This document shows, one piece after another, positions 28,901 through 63,400 of a stretch of DNA of 64,000 bases; position 1 is the first letter of the stretch; each line of letters begins with the position of its first letter. The translations under genes and the position numbers were made by a program. The stretch comes from Antedon mediterranea. Taxonomy: Eukaryota; Echinodermata; Crinoidea; Comatulida; Antedonidae. The DNA lies in contig NC_092670.1 in assembly GCF_964355755.1 (NCBI RefSeq), forward strand, positions 23,435,201 to 23,499,200, given 5' to 3'. The notes beneath the pieces are model-generated. The model had not been told where the DNA came from, made no database searches, and saw nothing but the letters and a program-made list of their open reading frames with translations.

Positions 28901-31900
28901 TCAGTTTCAGTATAAATATTTCATAATTGTTTAAAGGGTCTCATGTTGAATAAACACTATTAAAAAAAAAACTATTACAAGGAAATCAGAAAAAAATGTA
29001 TACCTTCTTTGTTTTTTGAAAATCCAAATACTTTTAAATTCTGCTGTTTAATGTCATCACAGGATCCAATAATTATTGATAATCTATCTAAATATATTTA
29101 TCATGCTTAAGTTAAGATATACGTTTGCTTAGAGAACAAAATTAATTAATTCATTTATCTTGTGACCATAAATTGCTTTATTTTTCAATGTAATTATTAT
29201 TTTGTTAATTACTAGGGGCCAGAGGCCTAAAGTAAATAAAGTCAGGCGATAAGCCTGAATGAATGAAATGAATGAATAAACACTATAAATGTCACCATGT
29301 GTCTCCAAAAGCAAATAATTGTGTTTGAGAATATCTTGACGTTTTGATGTTTCTTTTTGAGTACCGCAGACATACCTTACTAATAATGTCTTTAAATTAC
29401 ATGTATCATTAAAATGTATTGTAAATCCTATATACTATTTTTTTTTCTAGCCTGATGTGCAATCGTGGCTTCGAATTCTTGATCTCCAAGCCTACTACAA
29501 CACACTAATATCAAATGGTTATGACCAGGTTGAGTACCTGCATGACATGACATGGGAAGACCTTCAAGAGATTGGTATCATCAGACTGGGTCACCAGAAG
29601 AAGTTCATGCTGGCACTGAGACGTCTACGGGAGATCAAGAAGCATGAGAAGCATGCACTGGATGCTGCATCTTTTGAAGACTTAACCATGGATACACCAA
29701 CAGCACAGAAACTCACCAGCTCACCTTCTTTTGAAAATGTGACAATTACTGTTCGACAAAAGTCAGCAATCCAAGGAAGTCTGGAAAGCATTGGGAGTGA
29801 TATCTCAAATATATCTGGTGGATCTCTTGGATCTAAAGGGTCAAATGACAGTTATCCTCGTAAATTAATGCTACAAAGAAATCCAAACATGGCTGCGAAC
29901 AATCAAGTAGTCTCTTCTTATGTTCCTTGTATGACAACAGTCAAATCATCTCCAACAAAGGTGTTTACAGGACCACCTGAGAAAGACATCCCAGAGGAAC
30001 ATGATGCAGAGAGTGTTTATCAAAATGTGTCATTCTCTACATTCAAGCAATCAAGCGGTGGATCTCCAAAAGCAGTAGCAACTCCAGTACCTCCAAGATC
30101 TTCTAGTATGGATAGTCCTGACATGGTTCACAGAAATTCTTTTGGCAGTAGTAGCACATCATCTGGTGCTTCTGATCAAGGTTCTTTGAAAAACTTGAAA
30201 GAAAATCCATATGCAATCCCAAAACGTGGCAACTCTATGCACTCAATATCCGACAAACCTCTGATGACTGCAACAATAGGTCGCAGAAAATCTTTAAAAC
30301 AATTTAAAGCTGCACTTGATAATGGAACTGCAATTGATGCTTTGCGATCAACGCAAGTACCAGGCTATGCCACAATCAAACGAACACCCTCTAGACGAAC
30401 TGATCCTGTAAGATTACATCGGCACTTATCTCAAGAAAGAGATGACCAAAATCTTCACAGGCCACCATCTAGTGGAAGTTTGACTAGTGACATAGTAATA
30501 GATCAATCAGACAATGCATCACTTGACAACAGTAGTCTTCCAGATGTAACACAATCTGGAGAGGGTGATGGAAATATTAGAGGAAGTCCTGTTCATACAT
30601 TGAACAGAACCTTAAGTAATGGTGACCTTAATATTGGTGATGGCAGCAGCATTGTCCCAGCAAGCTTTCACTCTGCCAAACAACAATACCACGATCATAC
30701 TAATGCAAAAGGATCACTTCCAAATTATTATCAAACATTAAGAAGACCTCCCAGAAAGCCTCAGCCACTTGCTGATGATTTCCGTCCTCGATCTCGTTCT
30801 TTTACAGACAATGATGAACACATGCAGTCTCCAGTCAGAAAGAGTCCACCGGTCTCTTTTAGACCATCATCAAGCGAAGGAATCGATAAAAACCAATTAA
30901 ACAGAGAGGAACAACAACATAGTTTTCACACACAAAAGAATGTTTCAGCAGAAGAACAGAAAGTTCCAAACAATGATTCTCCATTTAAAAAACCATTCCC
31001 ACCGCCACCTATTGCCTTAAAACCTGTACAACATCAAACTCAAACTATTGCCAACAATGTTGAGTGCAGTGATCAATCCAAACAACCATCACCTCCTTTG
31101 AACGGGTCAAGAGAACAGCAAAGTAGTCAATCAAAGCCACCCATTGCGGCAATGGGGATAAACCTTAAACAGAAACAAATTAATAATGCAATAAAGCAAC
31201 AGCAGCAGAAGTTGGAAAAACAACAGCAACAATTACAGCAACAAAAAGAACAGCAGCAACAAAAGATACAACAAATGCACCAACAGCAACAAATGCAATA
31301 TCAGCAACAGCAGGAACAACAGGTGCAACATCAACAACAGCAACATATGCTGAAACAGCAAGATATACAGCAACAGCAACAACATATACAGCAACAACAA
31401 CAGATAAAACATCAGCAACAGATGGAACAGCAACAACATATGCTGAAACAACAACAGATACAAAATCAGCAACAACAACATATAAAGCAACAACAGATAC
31501 AACATCAGCAACAGATGCAACAGCAGATACAACAGCAACAAAAGCAAATACAACAACAAATGCAGCATCAGCAGCATGTGCAACACCATCATATTCAGCA
31601 AAAACAACAACAAATACAACAGCAACATGAACAACAAAAGCGACAACATCAAGAGTTTCTTCAGCAAAGGCATCAACAACAATTACAGAAAGATCAACAA
31701 CAACAACAACAAAGAGCACAACAGCAACATAAAGAATCACAGCAACAGAGTCATCAACACTTGCACCAGCAACATCAACAACATAGAGAATCACAGCAAC
31801 AGAGCCATAAACATTACTTGCAACAGCAACATCAACAACAAATGCAACATGAACAGCATTTAGAAAAACAACACAAAGATCAACAGATACATAAGCAACA

Positions 31901-34053
31901 ACAAAATGTACAAAGTCATCCGCAATATACACAGCATCAGCAAATGCAGCAACATCAACAAAATATAGAAAAACAACAACAAATACAGAAACACATTTCA
32001 GACCAGGTTGAAACAAATCAAACAAGAAAAGTACCTGGATTCCGTGTGTCATCATTTGGAAAAAACACTAACCCACCAAAGAAACCAACTCGTAATAATT
32101 CTCTACGTCTGGAATTAGTGACTGCACCAAGTACAGTTCCACCAAAACCTACACTTGTTCAGGTTAATCATAGCCCAAGTGACCAATATGCAAATAGGCC
32201 AAAACATTTGCATAATGAACATAAAAGTAATCCAACAGATTTGCATAGTCAACCATTACATTTGCATAAACCTAACCAGCAACCAATGGATTCAAACATC
32301 TTGAATTATGATAAGGAAAAAGAGCAGGCTCATATGAATAATGTTCAACCTAACATAGGTGCTAATTTGCATAAGCCGTTTGTTAAACAAAGGACTTCAC
32401 CTGCACAACAGTATAATGAAATAAGAAATATATCCAGAAGTGATGACTCAACACATCGGCAAAATGTAGAAGCAGTTAAAAAACATGGGGATAAAAATAA
32501 ATCGAAATCATCACCCAAAAAGACATTGAAACCTGATAATAAATGCAACTTGTCTAGTGATGACGAGGAAGGTATTCACAGACCTAAGACTGCTAACCTT
32601 GGTGCTAATGATACAGACACTGTTTTACGTTTACATTCACCTAAACATCGACATTATTCTGATGCAAGCTCCAAAAAGAGCTTCATTCCAGAAGTGCCCA
32701 AACCACCATTTGTACCGGCAATTGCCTCACCAGCTAAAACTGGTGACCAGGATCAAACAAAATTACTTGTCAGAGAACCAAGTGTAGATTTGTACTCTGC
32801 AGACTTTGACCAGTTGGATGGCATGGATGATGCAGTGGAATCAGATAGTAGTGATAATGTGGATCTTTTGTCAGGTTTTGAGAATGAAAACACTGATACA
32901 ATCAAGAAACAGCCAACAAAACAGGTTATAAAAGATATTCCATTTGAGGATTCACCAGGAGACATACAATCCGGACATTCTGTTGGTGCAGGTAACTTGC
33001 TTTTCACTTGTGTTTTCATAGAATGTCAGCCTAATGTTGCCTCCTTCTCTCCCATTTTACTCCTTTTTATTATATTCCATTGTATTTCATTTCATTTTTA
33101 TTTCATTTTACTCCATTTCATTTTATTCCATTTCAGTCAATTTCATTCCATTCCACTACATTTCAGCATTCGCTAAATTATATTATTCTTAATTTCTATA
33201 AAGAAAATGATCATTTTTCATCAAATCTATCACACTTTTTAAGCTTGTCTACACTATCAAACTTTGTCACAACAAAATGTGATGTGCCCATATGGACATG
33301 ATCATGTCATATCACTACAATATTTGGGCATATCACTACCATATTTGAGCTCATAACATAACACAGCTCATTTTGTGTAGATAGAGCTTTATGTTATGGA
33401 ATTTGTAAGCTAAAATTAATTTTGTATTGCTATTTCTAGATCTTGAAGATCTTGAAACTCTACTACTACGAGGAGAAAACAGCAGCCAGAATGTGTCAAT
33501 ATCGTCGTTAGATTTTCCACCTCCACCTTCAGATATTATTGATTATTCAGACTTGAATATACCTGATGATGACCTGCCTCTACCTCCACCACCGTCACAT
33601 CTTCTTCCTCCTGTGTAAGTATCTTCATTTCTTTCAATTTTTTTTTACTGTATAATAAACTTAAGTGACCTGAGGTAATACTGTAATAACTATAATAATA
33701 ATGATATAAAAAAAGTAAGTGTGTGGATGGAGGCCATACTAAGTTTAAAAAACTTTAAGGCATGGTCGCCAGTTAAAATAAGAGTTACAAAAAAAATGAT
33801 TAGGAGAGAGAAAAGAAAAATGTATGCACCTAGCAAGTATTGTTGGTGTTGCTGATAGGAAGAGATGCTTAAGATTATAATGTTGTTGTTGCTTTATTGA
33901 AGTATTGTTTTTCTCCTTTATTTGTTTATTTTAAATGTTTGGTTTTCTTTGTTTAGTCCTGGTGCAGCAGGACCTGAACAAGATGATGTGTTCGATGACA
34001 TTCAGTCAATGTTTACAAACTTAGCAGAGGATTTAGCAAGTATGATGAAATAA
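1985..34053 (+). CDS. CASKIN: Caskin-family scaffold protein (ankyrin-SH3-SAM-SAM), 5' end outside the window
   Basis: Synaptic/cytoplasmic scaffold homologous to vertebrate CASKIN1/2. Sixteen exons join in frame: 1985-2093, 2978-3086, 4292-4386, 8171-8288, 22158-22208, 23574-23741, 25168-25301, 26650-26776, 27106-27281, 27420-27534, 27796-27869, 28166-28276, 28701-28802, 29451-32991, 33440-33614, 33957-34053. They give about 1,766 residues ending in TAA. Order seen: last ankyrin repeats ([32 protein letters not shown]), an SH3 domain split over exons 3-4 ([15 protein letters not shown]), a Ser/Pro-rich linker, SAM1 in exons 12-13 ([23 protein letters not shown]), SAM2 opening exon 14 ([25 protein letters not shown]), a Gln/His-rich tract, Pro-rich stretches, and a short C-terminal helix ([13 protein letters not shown]) like the Caskin tail. 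The mammalian CASK-binding motif between SH3 and SAM1 is not visible, so CASK binding should not be assumed. The upstream ankyrin exons must lie left of the window. Confidence 0.93.
2094..2977 (+). other. Caskin intron
   Basis: Intron between two ankyrin exons. It contains an unrecognised moderately GC-rich block at about 2215-2350 and, at 2796-2901, a 106-bp segment bounded by a 9-bp inverted repeat (GGACTTGTT / AACAAGTCC) enclosing a hairpin with a CTGATG...GAAAC motif on the minus strand (see findings). Confidence 0.5.
3143..4172. repeat. 54-bp minisatellite in a Caskin intron, about 19 copies
   Basis: Tandem units of 54 bp around CCTGTAGACAACCTGTATAC plus GGTCAGGGCAGAGATATAGA. As 54 is divisible by 3, long open frames exist on both strands (for example an 18-residue periodic frame on the minus strand, 3141-4202). 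These are by-products of the repeat, which lies between the ankyrin and SH3 exons. Copies alternate between CTGGTCAGGG and CTTTTCAGGG variants, suggesting higher-order units. Confidence 0.9.
4452..4586. repeat. 15-bp tandem repeat, 9 copies, fused to a MITE end
   Basis: Nine exact copies of TAGAGTAAAGCTCTG. The array runs directly into the left end of the MITE at 4578-4725, and the unit contains that MITE's terminal AAAGCTCTG, so it probably arose by amplification of the transposon terminus. Confidence 0.9.
4578..4725. mobile_element. Short palindromic MITE (AAGCTCTGTCTACACTATCAA family), copy 2
   Basis: Left end AAAGCTCTGTCAAGACTATC, right end TTTGATAGTGCAGACAGAGC, with inner GTGATGTGCCCAAAATATGG and TATATGGGCACATCACATTT. 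The centre is inverted relative to copy 1, as expected of a near-palindrome. Confidence 0.8.
4726..8170 (+). other. Caskin intron splitting the SH3 domain
   Basis: No exon seen. Holds a dispersed CAGTAGAACCTCTATTAAGG-like repeat relic at about 4830-4965 (shared phrase TTCCCCTTGTTCATTTCAT with 25009-25026). Also a possible hAT-like end CAGTGGCGGATCCAG at 5410 with a second GGCGGATCCA at 5635, and a diverged direct duplication at 6335-6700. Confidence 0.5.
6335..6700. repeat. Diverged direct duplication, about 180-bp period
   Basis: The phrase ACCTAGGCACTATACA...CTATACTCAACATAA...AATAATCAA..GGAC occurs at about 6340-6395 and again at 6521-6575. Both copies are followed by AACTAAGCCTAAC / AACTGAACCTAAC, AAGTTAGTG and TGTGTGGT-type tails. 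Two units of an unidentified element or a local tandem duplication. Confidence 0.7.
8425..8790. repeat. 27-bp minisatellite, about 13-14 copies
   Basis: Tandem units of 27 bp (TGATATATACTGTATACGG plus AGGGAGGG), with degenerate copies on both flanks (8383-8425 and 8790-8845). The unit contains the palindrome TATATACTGTATA. It begins 137 bp downstream of the second SH3 exon. Open frames on both strands through it are repeat artefacts. Confidence 0.93.
9234..9410. mobile_element. 177-bp MITE with roughly 50-bp terminal inverted repeats
   Basis: The left end reads GCTTGGTTCCCACTTGAACG then AACGCAAGGACGTAAATGCAACGCAAG; the right end is its near-complement (CTTGCGTTGCGTTACGTCCTTG...CAGTGGGAACCACGC). 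The core carries AACCAATGACAAGCG and the reverse-complementary CTTGTGATTGGTCAATT. Superfamily and target duplication not resolved. Confidence 0.85.
10846..11235. repeat. Pyrimidine-rich minisatellite, about 19-bp unit
   Basis: Imperfect tandem units around ACCAGCCCTACCTCCTCCC; neighbouring variants drop or replace CTCC. The plus strand is almost pure C/T/A, giving a spurious Pro/Thr/Ser-rich frame at 10799-11278. Lies in an intron. Confidence 0.9.
11885..12078 (-). mobile_element. tRNA-derived SINE, copy 1 (minus strand)
   Basis: On the minus strand a tRNA-like head with A box (GGTTGGTGGTTAACATGCC) and B box (GGGTTCAATCC) is followed by a non-tRNA body ending GGCGACTTACTGATAA. The body matches the copy at 48481-48716 along its length (shared AGGGAGTGGAGTTGAAAGAG and TCGCCAATTACA.GATGGATAAA on the plus strand). 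The anticodon-arm region CCTTCCAA resembles tRNA-Gly(TCC), but that assignment is tentative. Confidence 0.82.
13577..14203. mobile_element. 627-bp piggyBac-like MITE, TTAA-flanked, copy 1
   Basis: Flanked by TTAA at 13573-13576 and 14204-14207, the piggyBac superfamily target duplication. Ends are AGACCCCTTCCCTGC and the complement of AGCCCCCTTCCCTACG. The body holds GCCTAGCCTAGCTAGGCTTAG-like palindromes, CGATCGATCG and a GCGGGCCGCTATAA block. No transposase frame, so non-autonomous. A copy of identical length lies inverted at 44150-44776. Confidence 0.88.
15309..15475. mobile_element. Short palindromic MITE (AAGCTCTGTCTACACTATCAA family), copy 3
   Basis: Ends TAAGCTCTGTCTGCACTATC and GATAGTGTAGAGAGAGCTTA. 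The core has GTGATGTGCCCCTATACAGT, a duplicated TATCACTACTATATTTTGG / ATCACTACCATATTTGGG block and GGGCACATCACA. Inside the long Caskin intron. Confidence 0.88.
20945..21195. repeat. Relic of the dispersed CAGTAGAACCTCTATTAAGG repeat
   Basis: CAGTAGGACCCTCCTTCAGG at the left and CCAACCTCTATTAACGGGAC at the right match the family best seen at 24770-25040. The two parts sit about 200 bp apart in opposite halves of the unit. Confidence 0.45.
22209..23573 (+). other. Caskin intron carrying the polypurine array
   Basis: Between the 51-bp exon 22158-22208 and the exon at 23574. Dominated by the polypurine minisatellite at 22657-23375, followed by a short CCCTAACCCTAACC at 23389-23402. No exon seen. 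Confidence 0.6.
22657..23375. repeat. Polypurine minisatellite (GGAGAGTAGGGGGAGAT), about 720 bp
   Basis: Tandem units of 13-19 bp built from GGAGAGTAGGGG plus GAGAT, GAGGGAGGGTGAT or GAGAGAGGGTGAT. The plus strand is almost free of C for about 700 bp and contains runs of four or five G at short intervals. It ends 198 bp before the exon at 23574. The minus-strand Pro/Ser-rich frame (22616-23386) is an artefact. Confidence 0.92.
23742..25167 (+). other. Caskin intron
   Basis: AT-rich with no exon seen. The only structured part is the duplicated dispersed repeat at 24770-25040. Confidence 0.55.
24770..25040. repeat. Dispersed repeat (CAGTAGAACCTCTATTAAGG family), two tandem copies
   Basis: Two units of about 125 bp: CAGTAGAACTCCTATTAAGA...GTCCCCTTAATAGGGG...ATGTTTGCCATAGTGT and CAGTAAAGCTTCTATTAAGG...GTCCCCTTTTATAGGG...ATGTTGACCATAGTGT. 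Each unit contains an internal inverted repeat (ATTAAGGGGACA / TGTCCCCTTAAT). Diverged relatives lie at about 4830, 8850, 20945, 26228 and 42734. Confidence 0.75.
25332..25486. mobile_element. Short palindromic MITE (AAGCTCTGTCTACACTATCAA family), copy 4
   Basis: Begins 30 bp after the Caskin exon ending at 25301. Ends TTAAGTCTACACTATCAAAC and GTTGATAGTGTGGACAGAGC. The core has a duplicated GATATGCCCAAACATG.TAGT block and TATATGGGCACATCACATTT. Confidence 0.88.
25588..25650. repeat. Possible retroposon 3' tail
   Basis: AATGCGCCTTGACA...AAGGCGCAATATAAAT is a short hairpin followed by TATGTATGTATGTAATAAATA, resembling the AAGGCGCTATATAAAT tails of many LINE/SINE 3' ends. Only the tail is recognisable. 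Confidence 0.35.
26392..26560. mobile_element. MITE with CACACCTGTTCCGGCAC ends, copy 1
   Basis: About 169 bp. Left end AAGGATGTTTCACACCTGTTCCGGCAC, right end its near-complement finishing AAGACCCTT. Inner phrase AACGTCAATGTT is mirrored by AACATTGATATTTGAT. A second copy with the same inner phrase lies at 37570-37739. Confidence 0.85.
28803..29450 (+). other. Caskin intron between SAM1 and SAM2
   Basis: AT-rich 648-bp intron with no exon, RNA gene or clear repeat beyond an ATGAATGAAATGAATGAATA microsatellite at about 29260. Confidence 0.5.
31180..32005 (+). repeat. Gln/His-rich coding tract in Caskin
   Basis: About 275 codons inside exon 14, mostly CAA/CAG with interspersed His, Met, Ile and Lys (periodic HQQQ.QQQHM-type units). 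It is in frame with SAM2 upstream and the Pro-rich tail downstream. Mixed CAA/CAG use argues for an old, interrupted tract rather than a pure CAG expansion. The region downstream of the SAMs is Pro-rich in vertebrate Caskins, so this is a lineage-specific low-complexity insertion by comparison with what I know of the family. Confidence 0.9.
33045..33170. repeat. TTCATTTCATT-type simple repeat
   Basis: Degenerate pentamer array (TTCATT, TTCCAT, TTTCATTTTA) directly after the exon 14 donor at 32991. It lets the exon 14 frame read through to 33176, so an end there would be an intron-retention artefact. Confidence 0.75.
33240..33390. mobile_element. Short palindromic MITE (AAGCTCTGTCTACACTATCAA family), copy 5
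   Basis: Left end AAGCTTGTCTACACTATCAA, inner TGTGATGTGCCCATATGGAC and duplicated ATATTTGGGCATATCACTAC; right end TTTGTGTAGATAGAGCTT. Lies in the Caskin intron before exon 15. Confidence 0.85.
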
Positions 34054-45300: not shown

Positions 45301-47487
45301 CTAGTGTAATTTCACTGTTGAACCTTCTTTAATACCATATTCACCAAGTGTTTGTGAATTTTCTAATACTCTACCATTGTAAGTAAGTCGTTGGAGATAC
45401 ACAGGTATTCCTTGCCTGCTGAATATCTTTGTCTTCAACTCTCTGACAGTGGATGAAGAAGACAAGTTCGTGTATGTTGCTTGTGTTCGTGAGTCGATGG
45501 AGTACACCTTAATTTTAAAATCACTGCTGGAATGAAATTACAAAAATAGAATAGAAATATCGTTGGGTGTGTAGGGGATTGGTAGTACAGTAAGGTGTAC
45601 TGGTAGTCTGGTGACGTTTGTAAGGAATAACTTTGGAGTGGGTCGAGAGATGGTCCTTGAGGTACACCAAGTGCAGATGTCTTTTAGAATAAAACATTAC
45701 ATTTCTGTTTTTAATATAGTGTAAATATATAGCAGTACTATATTAAAATATAGTACTGCTATATATTTTTATTTAAATTAATGACAAATAGTTTACAATT
45801 ACTTGCCACCTCTCATGGAATAATTGTCCACGTACCTTGTACTGAGATAGGAAAATGCTGCAGTCAAACCAACTGCTGCACCCACAGCAGCAATTCCAAG
45901 CCATCCTAGTCCACCTCTAGCTTGTTCATCCTCCCTTGCTATACAATGAAAAAATTGGTACAAATGAATTCAGTTCAGCTCTTCATTTTATAGTTAAGCT
46001 TTCGACTAATCATGGGCTTGTGGTCGTTACTGGAAACTGACAATATATATTCAAGTATCATATCCTACAAAAAAACTCATAAAAACCTCAGTACAGTGTC
46101 TACCATAACCAGAAGATCCCATACTCTTTTTGAATAATGCACAAATTACAAAAAGCAAGCTTTACTTACCATTTGCTACAGGTGCGGCAAAGACTAATTC
46201 ATCATCATCCTTGCCATCATCGTCTGGTATACTAAATAAAATTTAGAAATGTAGATTTAACAATATAATTCTTATGCTGGTTAACAGTTTAATTCCCTTC
46301 CCTTTTTGCTAAAAATTAGTATATGCAATTTGCATATACCTAGTGCTAAACAATATACTCGAGTTAAATAGACTAACACTCTTAATAAAGTTTATTAATA
46401 TAAATATTATTGAATTTATGGTTTTAATAGCATATTACCTATTTAAGACTTTAATAAGGGATTCTTCGTTTTTGCTTATGCGTTGCAACCAGTTTTTAAA
46501 ATTACCCAATGTGATTGGATTGATTGAATCAAACAAATTAATGCGTCTATCAAAGAAGCAATGCAGTGTGCATTTATCTAAAGAGTGTATTAAAATTTCT
46601 ACAAGTTTTTTGAACCAACTATCAAGATCATCTTTATGCCATGATTTTTCACTTCTTTCATTTAGGTGAAGCAGGCATGTTTTGAGATGGTATGATTTCA
46701 ACTTTCCAAATTGTGAACGATGCTGCTGGTCTGAATCTGCCATTGCCTTCAAAATCTTAAGACATGCACGATGAACTTCATCCATATTATCAACAGCTTT
46801 CTTTTCTTGTTCAGAGTAACTCTTTCGCCAGACATGGTTGAATTTATTATCAGCAGGGTCCTTTGGGGAATGGTAAGGGTCAGCTTGGTTATGACGTTTA
46901 GCAACATAATAATTTCCTTCATAACCAACAGCAGGAACCAAATCAATATCAATAGTGACATCTGTACATTTTACATTAAGTAGCTTTGCTGCACCATGAT
47001 CTCGCATCCTGATTTCATATCGTGGCAATTCTTTTTCCATAAATTTAACTGCTTCATTTACCACTGCCTGCATCGTATGCTGCATTTTTACTGGACTCAG
47101 TACTTGTATACCATCAGTATCAACCTTCTTCCACACGTGACCGCTGTAATATATGTAATAGTAGCCTGGTGCCTCCTTCATCTCTTTAAGAAAAGTGTGA
47201 CCATCCAGCTTTATAGGCAAAAGTAGATCAAACTCAATAGGCTTAGTTACCCTCAGACCTTCAAAGCTACTGCCCTGGCAAATCAATTCACCAAATGTGT
47301 ACTTCGTGCTTGTACTTGTGTACATTTCAAACTTTTCTATGATCTTTTCCAATACACGCCTAGCTGCCTCTTGTTCAGATTCATCGATAACAGCATGTTT
47401 GTAGTAGAATGATCTAAGCTTCGAGAGCAATGGGTTTCCACATTGGACTGGTCCAATAGAATCTTCTCTGTAATAATAATATGACAT
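45301..47487 (-). CDS. cGAS-like (Mab21) nucleotidyltransferase fused to a hydrophobic segment and a ubiquitin-like domain
   Basis: Four minus-strand exons, in transcript order 47487-46439, 46231-46170, 45938-45836, 45526-45301, join with matching phases into 479 residues. Residues 1-350 form a Mab21-type nucleotidyltransferase: QGSSFEG (71-77) is the substrate-binding GS loop, IEFDLLLPI supplies E85 and D87, and VTIDIDLVP supplies D180, so the metal-binding triad looks intact. The cGAS zinc ribbon is absent. An acidic linker (about 351-375) precedes a Gly/Ala-rich hydrophobic stretch (about 379-402, LGWLGIAAVGAAVGLTAAF) that could span a membrane. The C-terminus (406-479) is a ubiquitin-like fold (QRLTYNGRVLENSQTLGEYG, then GSTVKLH-stop) lacking a terminal Gly-Gly, hence not conjugatable. 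Family knowledge suggests a cyclic-dinucleotide synthase sensing nucleic acid; ligand and product are unknown. A 5' UTR acceptor (...attttag at 47500) suggests an upstream non-coding exon. The two domains could still be two genes. Confidence 0.8.
45723..45768. repeat. Perfect 22-bp inverted repeat (hairpin) in an intron
   Basis: The arms AAATATATAGCAGTACTATATT and its exact complement are separated by two bases, forming a 22-bp hairpin in the intron before the ubiquitin-like exon. Confidence 0.9.
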
Positions 47488-57431: not shown

Positions 57432-60400
57432 ATGTTTATAGTTTGGCAGCATCCATTTGTAAATATTTTTAAGCACTATCATATCGAAGAATGGAAAAAG
57501 TCAAGCAAAGAAGGAGAGGTGATATCAGTAATGGTAAGGCAACCCTTGCTGTAATGGCACCAGGTACTGTTTTAAACCAAAACCCCTCCCCAATAACAAT
57601 AATCAGATTGACTGGATTACAGTGTGATGTTTTGTTTTAAATTTTAAGATGTACATTGTCATGAAAATTGTAATTATTATTTAATAAATTTATTGCCTTA
57701 GAATTGATAGCTTACCTTTATTTAAATCTAAAATTAAGAAGTTTAAAGTACTTTGAATTGTTCTTGCTGTCTTGTGTTGCTACATATGTTCCATTTTGTA
57801 AGTGGCAGGCTACTGAGTGTGAATTGAAATAACAAGAGAAAAAATTTTATAAATAAAAATGAATAAACAGAAATTGCAAAAGTTATGTACATTATTTATT
57901 TGGTAGATAGCCTAATTCTTGTTTTATTTATTTTCTTTTCTAACTTAAAAGTAAATTTCGGCTCTAAAACACATAATATTTCCTTTTTTTCAACACAGGA
58001 CAAAACTTTGAAATGCACTGTATACCGCATAACTGGTTCAATCCCTGCAGGCAACTACATCCAACTTCCACAGACATCCACCCAGTCATTGGGATTGACC
58101 GGTCGCTACCTCTACCTACTTTTCCGACCAGCTGGTGGAAAATATTTTGTAGTCCATCTGGATGTGGTGACAGATGATGATCTTGTTGTCCGGATTTCTT
58201 TTTCAAATCTTTTCAAGGAGTTTAAGAGTTCTTCAACTTGGCTACAGCTTCCGTTTGTTTGCAATGCAGGAAAGGATTCTATTGACCACTACACAGCACC
58301 TGCAGATAAGCAAGGTTAGAGACAAAATGTAAATTCTATTTATGGGTCTCAATTTACAAGAAACCGTAAAAAGGCAGATTAAGTCCTGTAGAGGGCCTGC
58401 TCCGGTTCCAGCGGCAGCACTGCAAATAAAATGTGTGTCAATGTTTCTTAGCAAAATGTGCCAATTGAGTAAAAAGATCATTCTAAGCATGCTCATGTGT
58501 TTCTGAATGCGCAGAATTATCTTTTTACTTGATAGCTGCGTGGCACGTCATAAAACCAAAAAGTCACTAATACTTTACGGGCGAATCTGAACTCGAGCAG
58601 GACTCCGAGCGAAGCAGGTGTGAAATACGCTTAATGCCTGGGAAAAGATTTATACAGTATAGGAAAGATGTTTATGCTTTAGTTTTATCACACATACTGA
58701 CTTTACACACACAAAACTGCAACCACTTAAATAAGTGAATATCAATCAAATACAATCCTTATAATACAAATGATTCAATCAAAATAATACTTTTAATTAC
58801 AGTGAGACATGGTCCAGCACCTAATACCACCAAATGGACAGTACTCGTACTTGATTTCCAGTACATTCTTTCCATGTACCTAAATCGCAAATATGCATAC
58901 CTCAAGAACATTCGGCTTTGTGCTAACCTCGCTGTGAAGAACATGTTTACGAGCGACATGCAGTATGAACCAGGTATAACACTGAAGAAGGCAAAGGATG
59001 CTGGGCTACTAGCCCATGGGGTTGCCCCAATACCAAGAGACATGATGTTTCATGTTCCAAAAGGTCAAAATTGGTATGACCTCTATGATTATATAAGGTA
59101 TGTCGTTTTCTCAGTATTTTTATTAAATTTTTCAATAAAAATTCATTATCCTGACAATAGTGAAATTGTGTGATAGACTATGAAAATATATGATTACTGT
59201 ATATATGTACAGTATTTATTATTTATGTTCACAAATAAATAAAATGTAACAATTCTTTGTAAAACAATGTGGTAACAAATTGTGTGCCTTGCATTTGATG
59301 TAAACTTCTAAAGAAATATTTAACAAAGGTTATTCAATCATAATATGTGTAAAGGAGTATTTTATTATATTAATGTTATTCTAACAACTTTAATAGATCA
59401 CACTCAACATTTGGAATAAATGTTATACAAGATGTGTAGCCATCAGGCATTGACAAGTGTTAATGCAGTATGTGAACGCTTATTAACAAGTATGTTACAA
59501 TTTGTTGTAGGTTCCCAGTATCAGCATCAAAAGTACCATTTGACTCCATACAAGTAGCTGCCAGCACAAGGATTGCCTCTAGCCCACAAAAGCAGCCTCC
59601 TCCACTAGGAACTCTCAGTCCACAACGAGTAGAATCTAAGCAAGTGCATGTAAGATATGAGATAATTTATCTATATTTTAAAAATAAGTTTGAAAATGGT
59701 ACATCTACCTTTTTATAATAAAGAACATCAGACAATAATTTTAGATGTGTATGCGTATATACACTACTTAAAGTAAGGTTTGTAGTACACTGTGTGTTTC
59801 CAAAAAAAAGGAAATAAAGTAAGGCTGTCTCTATTGTTATGCTACCACTACCATGGAGAATAGGCTTAAGGTTCTCCAGAAGGTTCTCCGGTGGAAACAT
59901 AGAGAAATTCTCAACCATATTTTATTTCTTTGTGGAAACACATGATGTACCACAAACCATACTTATTCACTTATTTACAATGCAAACCTTTTACTGTATG
60001 TATACAGTTATCAAGTATCAAGTAATAAGTCATCAAAATCACTATTTTTTTTATAGAATTGTTCTTGTTTCTATTCCATTACAGGTTGACAAGAAAACTG
60101 ATGAACGTGTTACTCAAATGGATAATCTTACCAAGCCAAAGAAAGAGCGGAAACGCCGTCCCAAGGTGACCGCTCAACTACCTACCGTGAACTTATCGAG
60201 TAAAGACCCATCGGTTCATGTAGGAGAACAAGGAGAAGTGCATGTGTTTGCTAAGGATCAGGATAATGTCACTTTACATAGGCATGATGCTGCATCAGGA
60301 TTAGTGAGTACATTATCTCATTTACATAGGCATGATGCTGTATCAGGATTGGTGAGTACATTATCTCATTTACATAGGCATGATGCTGTATCAGGATTGG

Positions 60401-63400
60401 TGAGTACATTATCTCATTTGCATAGGCATGATGCTGCATCAGGATTGGTGGGTACATTATGTCATTTACATAGGCATGATGCTGCATCAGGATTGGTGAG
60501 TACATTATCTCATTTACATAGGCATGATGCTGTATCAGGATTAGTGAGTACATTATCTCATTTGCATAGGCATGATGCTGCATCAGGATTGGTGGGTACA
60601 TTATGTCATTTACATAGGCATGATGCTGCATCAGGATTGGTGAGTACATTATCTCATTTACATAGGCATGATGCTGTATCAGGATTGGTGAGTACATTAT
60701 CTCATTTACATAGGCATAATACTGTATCAGGATTGGTGAGTACATTATCTCATTTAATAGGCATAATGCTGTATCAGGATTGGCGAGTACATTATCTCAT
60801 TTGCATAGGCATGATGCTGTATCAGGATTGGCGAGTACATTATCTCATTTACATAGGCATGATGCTGTATCAGGATTGGTGAGTACATTATCTCATTTGC
60901 ATAGGCATGATGCTGTATCAGGATTGGTGAGTACATTATCTCATTTACATAGGCATGATGCTGTATCAGGATTGGTGAATACATTATCTCATTTATATAG
61001 GCATGATGCTGTATCAGGATTGGTGAGTACATTATCTCATTTACATAGGCATGATACTGCATCAGGATTGGTGGGTACATTATGTCATTTACATAGGCAT
61101 AATGCTGCATCAGGATTGGTGAGTACATTATCTCATTTACATAGGCATAATGCTGTATCAGGATTGGTGAGTATATTATCTCATTTACATAGGCATAATG
61201 CTGCATCAGGATTGGTGAGTACATTATCTCATTTACATAGGCATGATGTTGCACCAGGATTAGTGAGTATATTATCTCATTTGCATAGGCATGATGCTGT
61301 ATCAGGATTGGTGAGTATATTATCTCATTTGCATAGGCATGATGCTGTATCAGGATTGGTGAGTACATTATCTCATTTACATAGGCATGATGCTGTATCA
61401 GGATTGGTGAGTACATTATCTCATTTGCATAGGCATGATGCTGTATCAGGATTGGTGAGTACATTATCTCATTTACATAGGCATGATGCTGTATCAGGAT
61501 TGGTGAGTACATTATCTCATTTGCATAGGCATGATGCTGCATCAGGATTACTGAGTACATTATCTCATTTACATAGGCATGATGCTGTATCAGGATTGGT
61601 GAGTATATTATCTCATTTGCATAGGCATGATGCTGTATCAGGATTGGTGAGTACATTATCTCATTTACATAGGCATGATGCTGTATCAGGATTAGTGAGT
61701 ATATTATCTCATTTGCATAGGCATGATGCTGCATCAGGATTGGTGAGTACATTATCTCATTTGCATAGGCATGATGCTGTATCAGGATTGGTGAGTACAT
61801 TATCTCATTTGCATAGGCATGATGCTGTATCAGGATTGGTGGGTACATTATCTCATTTGCATAGGCATGATGCTGTATCAGGATTGGTGAGTACATTATC
61901 TCATTTATATAGGCATGATGCTGTATCAGGATTGGTGAGTACATTATCTCATTTACATAGGCATGATGCTGTATCAGGATTGGTGAGTACATTATCTCAT
62001 TTGCATAGGCATGATGCTGCATCAGGATTGGTGGGTACATTATGTCATTTACATAGGCATGATGCTGCATCAGGATTGGTGAGTACATTATCTCATTTAC
62101 ATAGGCATGATGCTGTATCAGGATTAGTGAGTACATTATCTCATTTGCATAGGCATGATGCTGCATCAGGATTGGTGGGTACATTATGTCATTTACATAG
62201 GCATGATGCTGCATCAGGATTGGTGAGTACATTATCTCATTTACATAGGCATGATGCTGTATCAGGATTGGTGAGTACATTATCTCATTTACATAGGCAT
62301 AATACTGTATCAGGATTGGTGAGTACATTATCTCATTTAATAGGCATAATGCTGTATCAGGATTGTCGAGTACATTATCTCATTTGCATAGGCATGATGC
62401 TGTATCAGGATTGGCGAGTACATTATCTCATTTACATAGGCATGATGCTGTATCAGGATTGGTGAGTACATTATCTCATTTGCATAGGCATGATGCTGTA
62501 TCAGGATTGGTGAGTACATTATCTCATTTATATAGGCATGATGCTGTATCAGGATTGGTGAGTACATTATCTCATTTGCATAGGCATGATGCTGTATCAG
62601 GATTGGTGGGTACATTATCTCATTTGCATAGGCATGATGCTGTATCAGGATTGGTGGGTACATTATCTCATTTGCATAGGCATGATGCTGTATCAGGATT
62701 GGTGAGTATATATAAAGCAGAAACTTTTGATTCCATTATCTCATTTGCATATAGTTCATAGTTCAATTTCAAAAGAAAATTCCTTTTGACATTTAATTAC
62801 TCACAAAAACAAACAATATACATAATAATATATATAATATACAGGCATAAAACAATGTTATGTGAAGAATTTAAACATTTGTTTGGAGGTACAACATGCT
62901 ATGAAGTACTGTACCACAGAAAGGTGTATGCTAGCTTGAGCCTGAGATTGACATCCCTTGTTGTCTACAAGTTTTATCAAAGCATTGTTACCCATTTAGA
63001 CCCTATTTCAGTTTCAGTTTGTATACTGTTATTACCTACATGGTTTTGCCAGACATAATGGCAAAAAAAAAATACTAAATTTAGCTCTTATTAGCATTAC
63101 AAACCATGCATACACTTAGTTTGTGTTGAATATTAATTAAGACCTCTTTTTTATAGAGTACCTCTACAAAGGTGGTTTCCAGCGCTTCTCCGGTTTCCAA
63201 ACAATTTAACAAGGTAAAGGTGAATTGATTGTAATTCAACCATCTATCATCATACAAGTGATTTCATAATAGTGCTTAGCATTTGCTGTTCAAATTGTTT
63301 CACTGGTGGCATACAAGTATGTGACTCCAAAGCCAGGGGGACCTCTGACAAAGATTTAATGAAGCATAAACTGAATTTTTGACATTTTTATTTTTAGACT

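Follow-up and report, generated by a model that had tools for sequence, protein, structure and literature searches.

In the crinoid Antedon mediterranea, a gene that joins a Mab21-type, cGAS-like nucleotidyltransferase to a C-terminal ubiquitin-like (Ubl) domain was found to belong to a recurrent fusion that, judged from its sequences, appears to be under constraint and would represent the OASL-type design of nucleotidyltransferase plus Ubl, now among cGAS-type enzymes. Of greatest interest in this family are its paralogues with an RLRGG tail, which lie outside the coordinates of the focal gene.

Gene model and recurrence of the fusion

The focal gene was found on the minus strand of the window (the whole stretch of 64,000 nucleotides that was analyzed) and was modeled as four exons between 47487 and 45301 with a single open frame of 479 residues:

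Exon 1, 46439..47487, minus strand: carries the start codon and encodes residues 1-349 plus two bases of codon 350, with the Mab-21 nucleotidyltransferase domain and the Mab-21_C domain
Exon 2, 46170..46231, minus strand: acidic linker; GT-AG boundaries, phases 2 and 1
Exon 3, 45836..45938, minus strand: remainder of the linker and a Gly/Ala-rich hydrophobic stretch; GT-AG boundaries
Exon 4, 45301..45526, minus strand: Ubl domain, stop codon included (PF00240, 3.3e-20)

The first-pass annotation had described three consensus splice junctions that keep one frame, and both the coordinates and the open frame were confirmed: all introns are of the GT...AG type, with the donors TAG/GTAATA, ATG/GTAAGT, and AAG/GTACGT in exon order, and their phases, derived from the exon lengths, are 2, 1, and 2. 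Pfam matches to the focal model up to an E value of 1 numbered four, with the OAS family absent among them; Mab-21 (PF03281, 1.4e-14) and Mab-21_C (PF20266, 1.1e-15) were both over their curated cutoffs. The open frame that holds the Ubl does not contain a single ATG, and the Ubl is therefore not a separate ATG-started gene.

Elsewhere in the window, the plus strand carries a large open frame in which a SAM domain precedes a long region rich in Gln (29451-33176) and two CFA20-domain stretches that are likely one gene (57867-59173), and a long minisatellite of SHLHRHDAVSGLVSTL-like repeats is open on both strands (60720-62465).

The focal enzyme exon, used as a query against the genome (354 Mb, 18 contigs), gave 13 matches at ten loci, named focal, C7a, C7b, C1a, C1b, C1c, C1d, C1e, C1f, and C1psi, and 31 matches with E values up to 10 were obtained with the Ubl exon. 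At 6 of the 10 Mab21 loci (focal, C7a, C7b, C1a, C1b, and C1psi), on two contigs, a Ubl exon lies downstream on the same strand within 2.1 kb. The number of such neighbors expected by chance is 0.0018 (57 ubiquitin-family matches in the genome, 2.2 kb, ten loci), and chance placement of the Ubl exons was rejected. The gene models keep the frame from enzyme to Ubl at four loci, the focal locus, C7b, C1a, and C1b, which are referred to here as intact fusions:

C1a, C1:24193181-24191298, minus strand: 457-residue, two-exon Mab21-Ubl fusion that ends exactly in RLRGG and a stop codon
C1b, C1:24236569-24234917, minus strand: 415-residue fusion that ends in RLRGGR, with the broken copy C1psi downstream
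C7b and its neighbor C7a, C7:24487976-24485257 and C7:24492800-24489600, minus strand: Ubl of C7b followed by in-frame hydrophobic repeats

As a gene architecture, the fusion that had been proposed for the focal locus holds up, since its recurrence in paralogues contradicts, within this genome, the notion that all relatives lack it. C7a has a Ubl that is split over two frames by a frameshift and separated from its enzyme by a long minisatellite, and C1psi has stops within the enzyme and an open Ubl ending in RLRGGR. No Ubl was found downstream of C1c, C1d, C1e, or C1f (C1e was scanned 3.1 kb further). A permissive 6.5-kb search at C1c recovered a 32-base stretch that is identical to the Ubl exon of C1b at 28 of 32 bases (E value of 3e-5, where what is probably a chance stretch in the same region reached 6e-4), which hints that C1c once had a Ubl and later lost it.

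In all four intact fusions, phase 2 is shared by the intron that follows the Mab21 exon and by the one that precedes the Ubl exon. In the models of C1a and C1b, a single phase-2 intron is present and the enzyme exon is spliced straight to the Ubl exon. C7b, modeled from nine codons before its first Met, contains a counterpart of focal exon 3 with identical phases (1 before, 2 after) and one extra linker exon. A poly-Asp frame that is open downstream of the enzyme exon in C1a resembles an intronic GAT repeat and was rejected as an exon because the direct Mab21-to-Ubl splice keeps the frame. The alternative that the Ubl exon is a gene of its own, simply neighboring a short Mab21 gene, is highly improbable; it is in keeping with the encoding of both Mab21 domains by exon 1 alone and with the four of ten loci at which no Ubl was found, but the same layout is present at six loci on two contigs, the intron phases match, and in all four intact fusions the Ubl frame contains no ATG upstream of the domain. 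The separate-gene reading of the Ubl exon was rejected on these grounds of phase, missing ATG, and recurrence.

In the Mab21 tree, the focal copy, C7a, and C7b form a group (100/100), C1b is placed less firmly with C1c and C1d (91/100), and the deeper branch order is without resolution. The Ubl domains of the focal copy and C7b pair weakly (81/64), which, together with the grouping of the enzymes, is as expected if both parts descended together. Pattern searches for relatives gave 71 stretches in viral contigs and 18 in prokaryote genomes, and none of these was confirmed as a relative.

The genome contains 48 Mab-21 matches. COX1 was also looked for in the assembly, without a match. An 887-residue open frame on the minus strand (C2:2081513-2078853) has apparent ankyrin repeats, recognized by eye, before its Mab-21 match, and a 654-residue open frame on the plus strand (C6:31598578-31600539) has a charged half that by eye is coiled-coil-like, followed by five ubiquitin-family matches.

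Catalytic residues, enzyme type, and selection

The catalytic residues of the focal copy were positioned by arithmetic from the gene model:

Catalytic residue span, 46942..47235, minus strand: E85 (47233-47235), D87 (47227-47229), and D182 (46942-46944)

A triad of E85, D87, and D180 had been named in the first-pass annotation. Its first two residues stand, and the third is replaced by D182: G72 S73 S74, E85, D87, and D182 are invariant in an alignment of six family members, and at the position of D180, C7b reads Tyr, yet it keeps D182.

Which enzyme the domain resembles most depends on the query. Among solved structures, the focal enzyme exon alone is most similar to 7lt2, a Mab-21 domain-containing protein (9.5e-15), and to cGLR1 8gjy (1.6e-10), followed by MID51 in third place (7e-10) and cGAS (from 3.2e-9). 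With the profile of the six family members, the best PDB match is MID51 (9.6e-48), followed by cGLR1 8gjy (4.4e-38), 4jlx, annotated as an uncharacterized protein (1.7e-29), and structures of cGAS (from about 1e-27). An AlphaFold2 model of the enzyme exon as a single sequence had a pLDDT of 35 and was set aside. MID51 is noncatalytic, and with MID51 as the best profile match, the triad alone is no proof of an active enzyme.

We consider it unlikely that the enzyme part works as a MID51-type pseudoenzyme, which would bind a nucleotide and recruit partners and make no messenger. The top rank of MID51 with the family profile argues for such a protein, as does the Pfam family MID51-like_C, which matches C1a (6e-13) and also C1b (7.6e-9). 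However, the focal sequence by itself ranks 7lt2 and cGLR1 8gjy ahead of MID51 and matches MID51-like_C only at 0.097, the GSS motif and E85, D87, and D182 are retained by the family, and the profile alignment places HIQL of MID51 where the Mab21-Ubl family has EFDL, by which mark the family is not a MID51-type pseudoenzyme. A search of the literature on cGAS together with MID51 in invertebrates (catalysis, phylogeny) found no paper. We continue to favor a cGAS-like enzyme that would make a nucleotide messenger.

For the enzyme parts, calculated from the start codons and with ranges that span NG86 to YN00, dN/dS was 0.34 to 0.47 for focal/C7a, 0.40 to 0.50 for focal/C7b, 0.32 to 0.52 for C1c/C1d, 0.22 to 0.26 for C1b/C1d, and a rather high 0.56 to 0.75 for C7a/C7b. 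For the Ubl domains (NG86), dN/dS was 0.45 for focal/C7b, and the pair C1b/C1psi had a dN of 0.021 and a dS of 0.080, from 8 base differences. With several dS values near 1, the ratios are rough. By these sequence comparisons, both the enzyme and the Ubl halves look constrained yet fast evolving, as immune genes often are.

The Ubl domain, its tail, and the hydrophobic stretch

The assignment of the focal Ubl to the ubiquitin family is supported by its solved relatives, which are ubiquitin, ISG15, and the OAS-family Ubl 7sbi. AlphaFold2 run on its single sequence predicted the element order strand-strand-helix-strand-helix-strand, with a pLDDT of 70.1 for the best of five models and 62 to 36 for the others, and a Foldseek search with the model ranked ubiquitin-like proteins first, a supportive result only, with 0 of 357 matches at an E value of <=0.001. 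In the alignment, the positions of I44, K48, and K63 of ubiquitin are occupied by Thr, Arg, and Glu, which makes detailed mimicry of ubiquitin chains by the focal Ubl unlikely.

The focal Ubl stops at the position of ubiquitin residue 70, and the LRLRGG tail is therefore missing from this copy. A Ubl without Gly-Gly had been described earlier; this is correct for the focal copy, which ends in STVKLH, and does not extend to the paralogues C1a and C1b. Two of the four intact fusions (C1a and C1b) carry the RLRGG tail, and the focal copy and C7b lack it, so that Gly-Gly after an R-L-R run, the mark of a conjugatable modifier, is present in the former and absent from the focal gene. C1b and C1psi have one residue behind the Gly-Gly, much like the polyubiquitin gene of the same genome, which ends in RLRGGL. 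The Ubl domains of C1a and C1b are 41% identical, and their RLRGG is identical although 7 of its 15 bases differ; in a simulation of seven random base changes, the RLRGG peptide was preserved in 7 of 200,000 draws. That the peptide is intact despite these base changes indicates that the tail itself is under selection. On this sequence evidence, the RLRGG paralogues shift the most interesting mechanism from an adaptor to a putative covalent modifier, a point that the earlier reading of the focal copy had missed.

A different account would make the Ubl a purely noncovalent adaptor throughout the family, in the mode of mammalian OASL, with RLRGG left over, unused, from the capture of a ubiquitin or ISG15-like exon. 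The tailless Ubl domains of the focal copy and C7b, still at the dN/dS given above, are consistent with this account, and C5 contains Ubl exons with an LRLRGG end, which are possible donors or relatives; an unused tail, however, should decay, and RLRGG has been kept in C1a and C1b at their low Ubl identity. We judge a family-wide adaptor role to be possible and rather less probable than a tail in use. The C5 exons form a cluster on the plus strand (C5:1830391-1842744) in which three have a Gly-Gly end (two LRLRGG, one LRVHGG), and their open frames contain no Met before the domain. In 20 kb of sequence upstream of the cluster, nothing was recognized by eye.

Between the linker and the Ubl, the focal model contains one further element:

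Hydrophobic stretch, 45844..45909, minus strand: residues 381-402; borderline membrane helix

Its Kyte-Doolittle maximum over 19 residues is 1.83 (residues 381-399), and the usual cut for a membrane segment is 1.6. The top four 19-residue windows of the 479-residue model all lie at 380-402, the fourth has a value of 1.58, and no other is above it; by the same hydropathy windows, the model does not have an N-terminal membrane anchor of the kind that marks MID51. The membrane tethering suggested in the first-pass annotation is thus backed by a borderline value in the focal copy and is not borne out in the paralogues. A membrane-tethered sensor in which this stretch is a true transmembrane helix seems to us improbable: the focal hydropathy and the stronger hydrophobic repeats after the C7b Ubl (2.43) speak for it, whereas the homologous exon of C7b peaks at just 1.10, and C1a and C1b, with the enzyme exon spliced directly to the Ubl exon, have no exon that matches the stretch. 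Tethering is therefore not a family feature at that place, and for the focal copy it is possible on the evidence of its sequence. A spanning helix there would put the enzyme and the Ubl on opposite sides of the membrane. Downstream of the Mab21 paralogue C1e, an open frame on the plus strand (C1:24129101-24129259) contains a stretch of strong hydrophobicity (3.39); the corresponding frame of C1f is broken by a stop, and the coding frame is ambiguous.

Proposed mechanism and known systems

The reading that we prefer, by a modest preference, is that of a cGAS-like family with a Ubl encoded by the last exon, which would signal to STING through a messenger and in which the RLRGG copies would act covalently and the focal copy noncovalently. 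The focal gene would be a member of a small, fast-evolving animal family of Mab21-type nucleotidyltransferases with a C-terminal Ubl from the last exon. The enzyme part may sense a ligand and make a nucleotide second messenger, to be read by the STING proteins of the same genome, in which 18 matches to the STING ligand-binding domain (exons counted singly) were found at C1:19073412-19107563. In the RLRGG paralogues, the Ubl would be activated by E1/E2 machinery and the sensor attached to targets, which would fix an active sensor in place or increase its output. The tailless focal Ubl would be a noncovalent docking or regulatory module, much as in mammalian OASL relative to bird OASL, and the hydrophobic stretch may contribute a loose membrane association. 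The STING array on C1 apparently consists of several tandem genes.

A stronger version, in which animal cGAS-like sensors are themselves ubiquitin-like modifiers, with the activated RLRGG paralogues charged by the E1/E2 enzymes of the cell and covalently joined to targets by their own tail and the focal/C7 branch having dropped conjugation and kept a docking Ubl, is put forward tentatively and with clearly less confidence. If true, it would be an independent eukaryotic counterpart of the Cap2-dependent conjugation of bacterial cGAS and of the conjugation of bird OASL.

The MID51/MIEF1 proteins resemble the family as its closest solved structure by profile, not by the focal sequence alone, and differ in the HIQL motif, where the family keeps the triad. 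MID51 has an N-terminal membrane anchor and is not known to carry a Ubl. ISG15 shares the Ubl fold and is among the solved matches of the focal Ubl; it is a free tandem modifier without an enzyme domain. With the cGLRs, the focal family shares the Mab21 and Mab21_C domains, the GSS motif, the E-D-D triad, and the presence of STING-domain genes in the same genome. In contrast, a survey of cGLRs describes 87% of them as single-domain proteins and names fusions with TPR, ankyrin, death, and multi-cGLR architectures, with no Ubl among these named fusions (PMC9980059). A term search for "ubiquitin" gave no hit in the main texts of that survey and of PMC10732462 and a single hit in that of PMC12424679, apparently in the title of a reference. 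Within the open-licence literature and these three main texts searched by term, no paper was recognizable as a description of a Mab21-Ubl fusion. Such a fusion may be present among the automatic gene models of public databases.

Vertebrate OASL, which had been overlooked in the first-pass annotation, is the nearest working counterpart, as a nucleotidyltransferase with a C-terminal Ubl. Both are immune nucleotidyltransferases in which the tail is kept in some members and lost in others: bird OASL ends in LRLRGG and chicken OASL is reported to form conjugates, and mammalian OASL is described as having lost the tail (PMC8764230). They differ in that OASL combines an OAS-type enzyme with two tandem Ubl domains, which in human OASL are reported to be able to replace K63-linked chains on RIG-I (PMC4446440), and the crinoid family combines a Mab21-type enzyme with one Ubl. 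The OAS proteins of lower Metazoa that were examined in PMC6307210 are described there as being without a Ubl. Two OAS1_C matches were found in the crinoid genome with no ubiquitin-family match near either, and the Mab21-Ubl fusion is therefore probably independent of OASL.

The type II CBASS of bacteria, with its partner proteins Cap2 and Cap3, is similar in that a cGAS-like enzyme is joined to targets by its own C-terminal glycine, with cGAMP output raised as a result of the attachment by Cap2 as reported in PMC10097602. The bacterial cGAS is without a ubiquitin fold and needs the dedicated E1-E2 protein Cap2, whereas here a true Ubl is present, which carries RLRGG in two out of four intact fusions. 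Attachment of a sensor to targets by its own C-terminal glycine is known from bacterial cGAS (PMC10097602), and chicken OASL has been reported as another case (PMC8764230). Mab21-type sensors with a built-in Ubl, some with RLRGG, would add one more independent example, on the side of animal cGAS. With the tail kept in some copies and lost in others inside one genome, they offer a natural experiment that makes it testable why immune nucleotidyltransferases repeatedly turn into ubiquitin-like modifiers.
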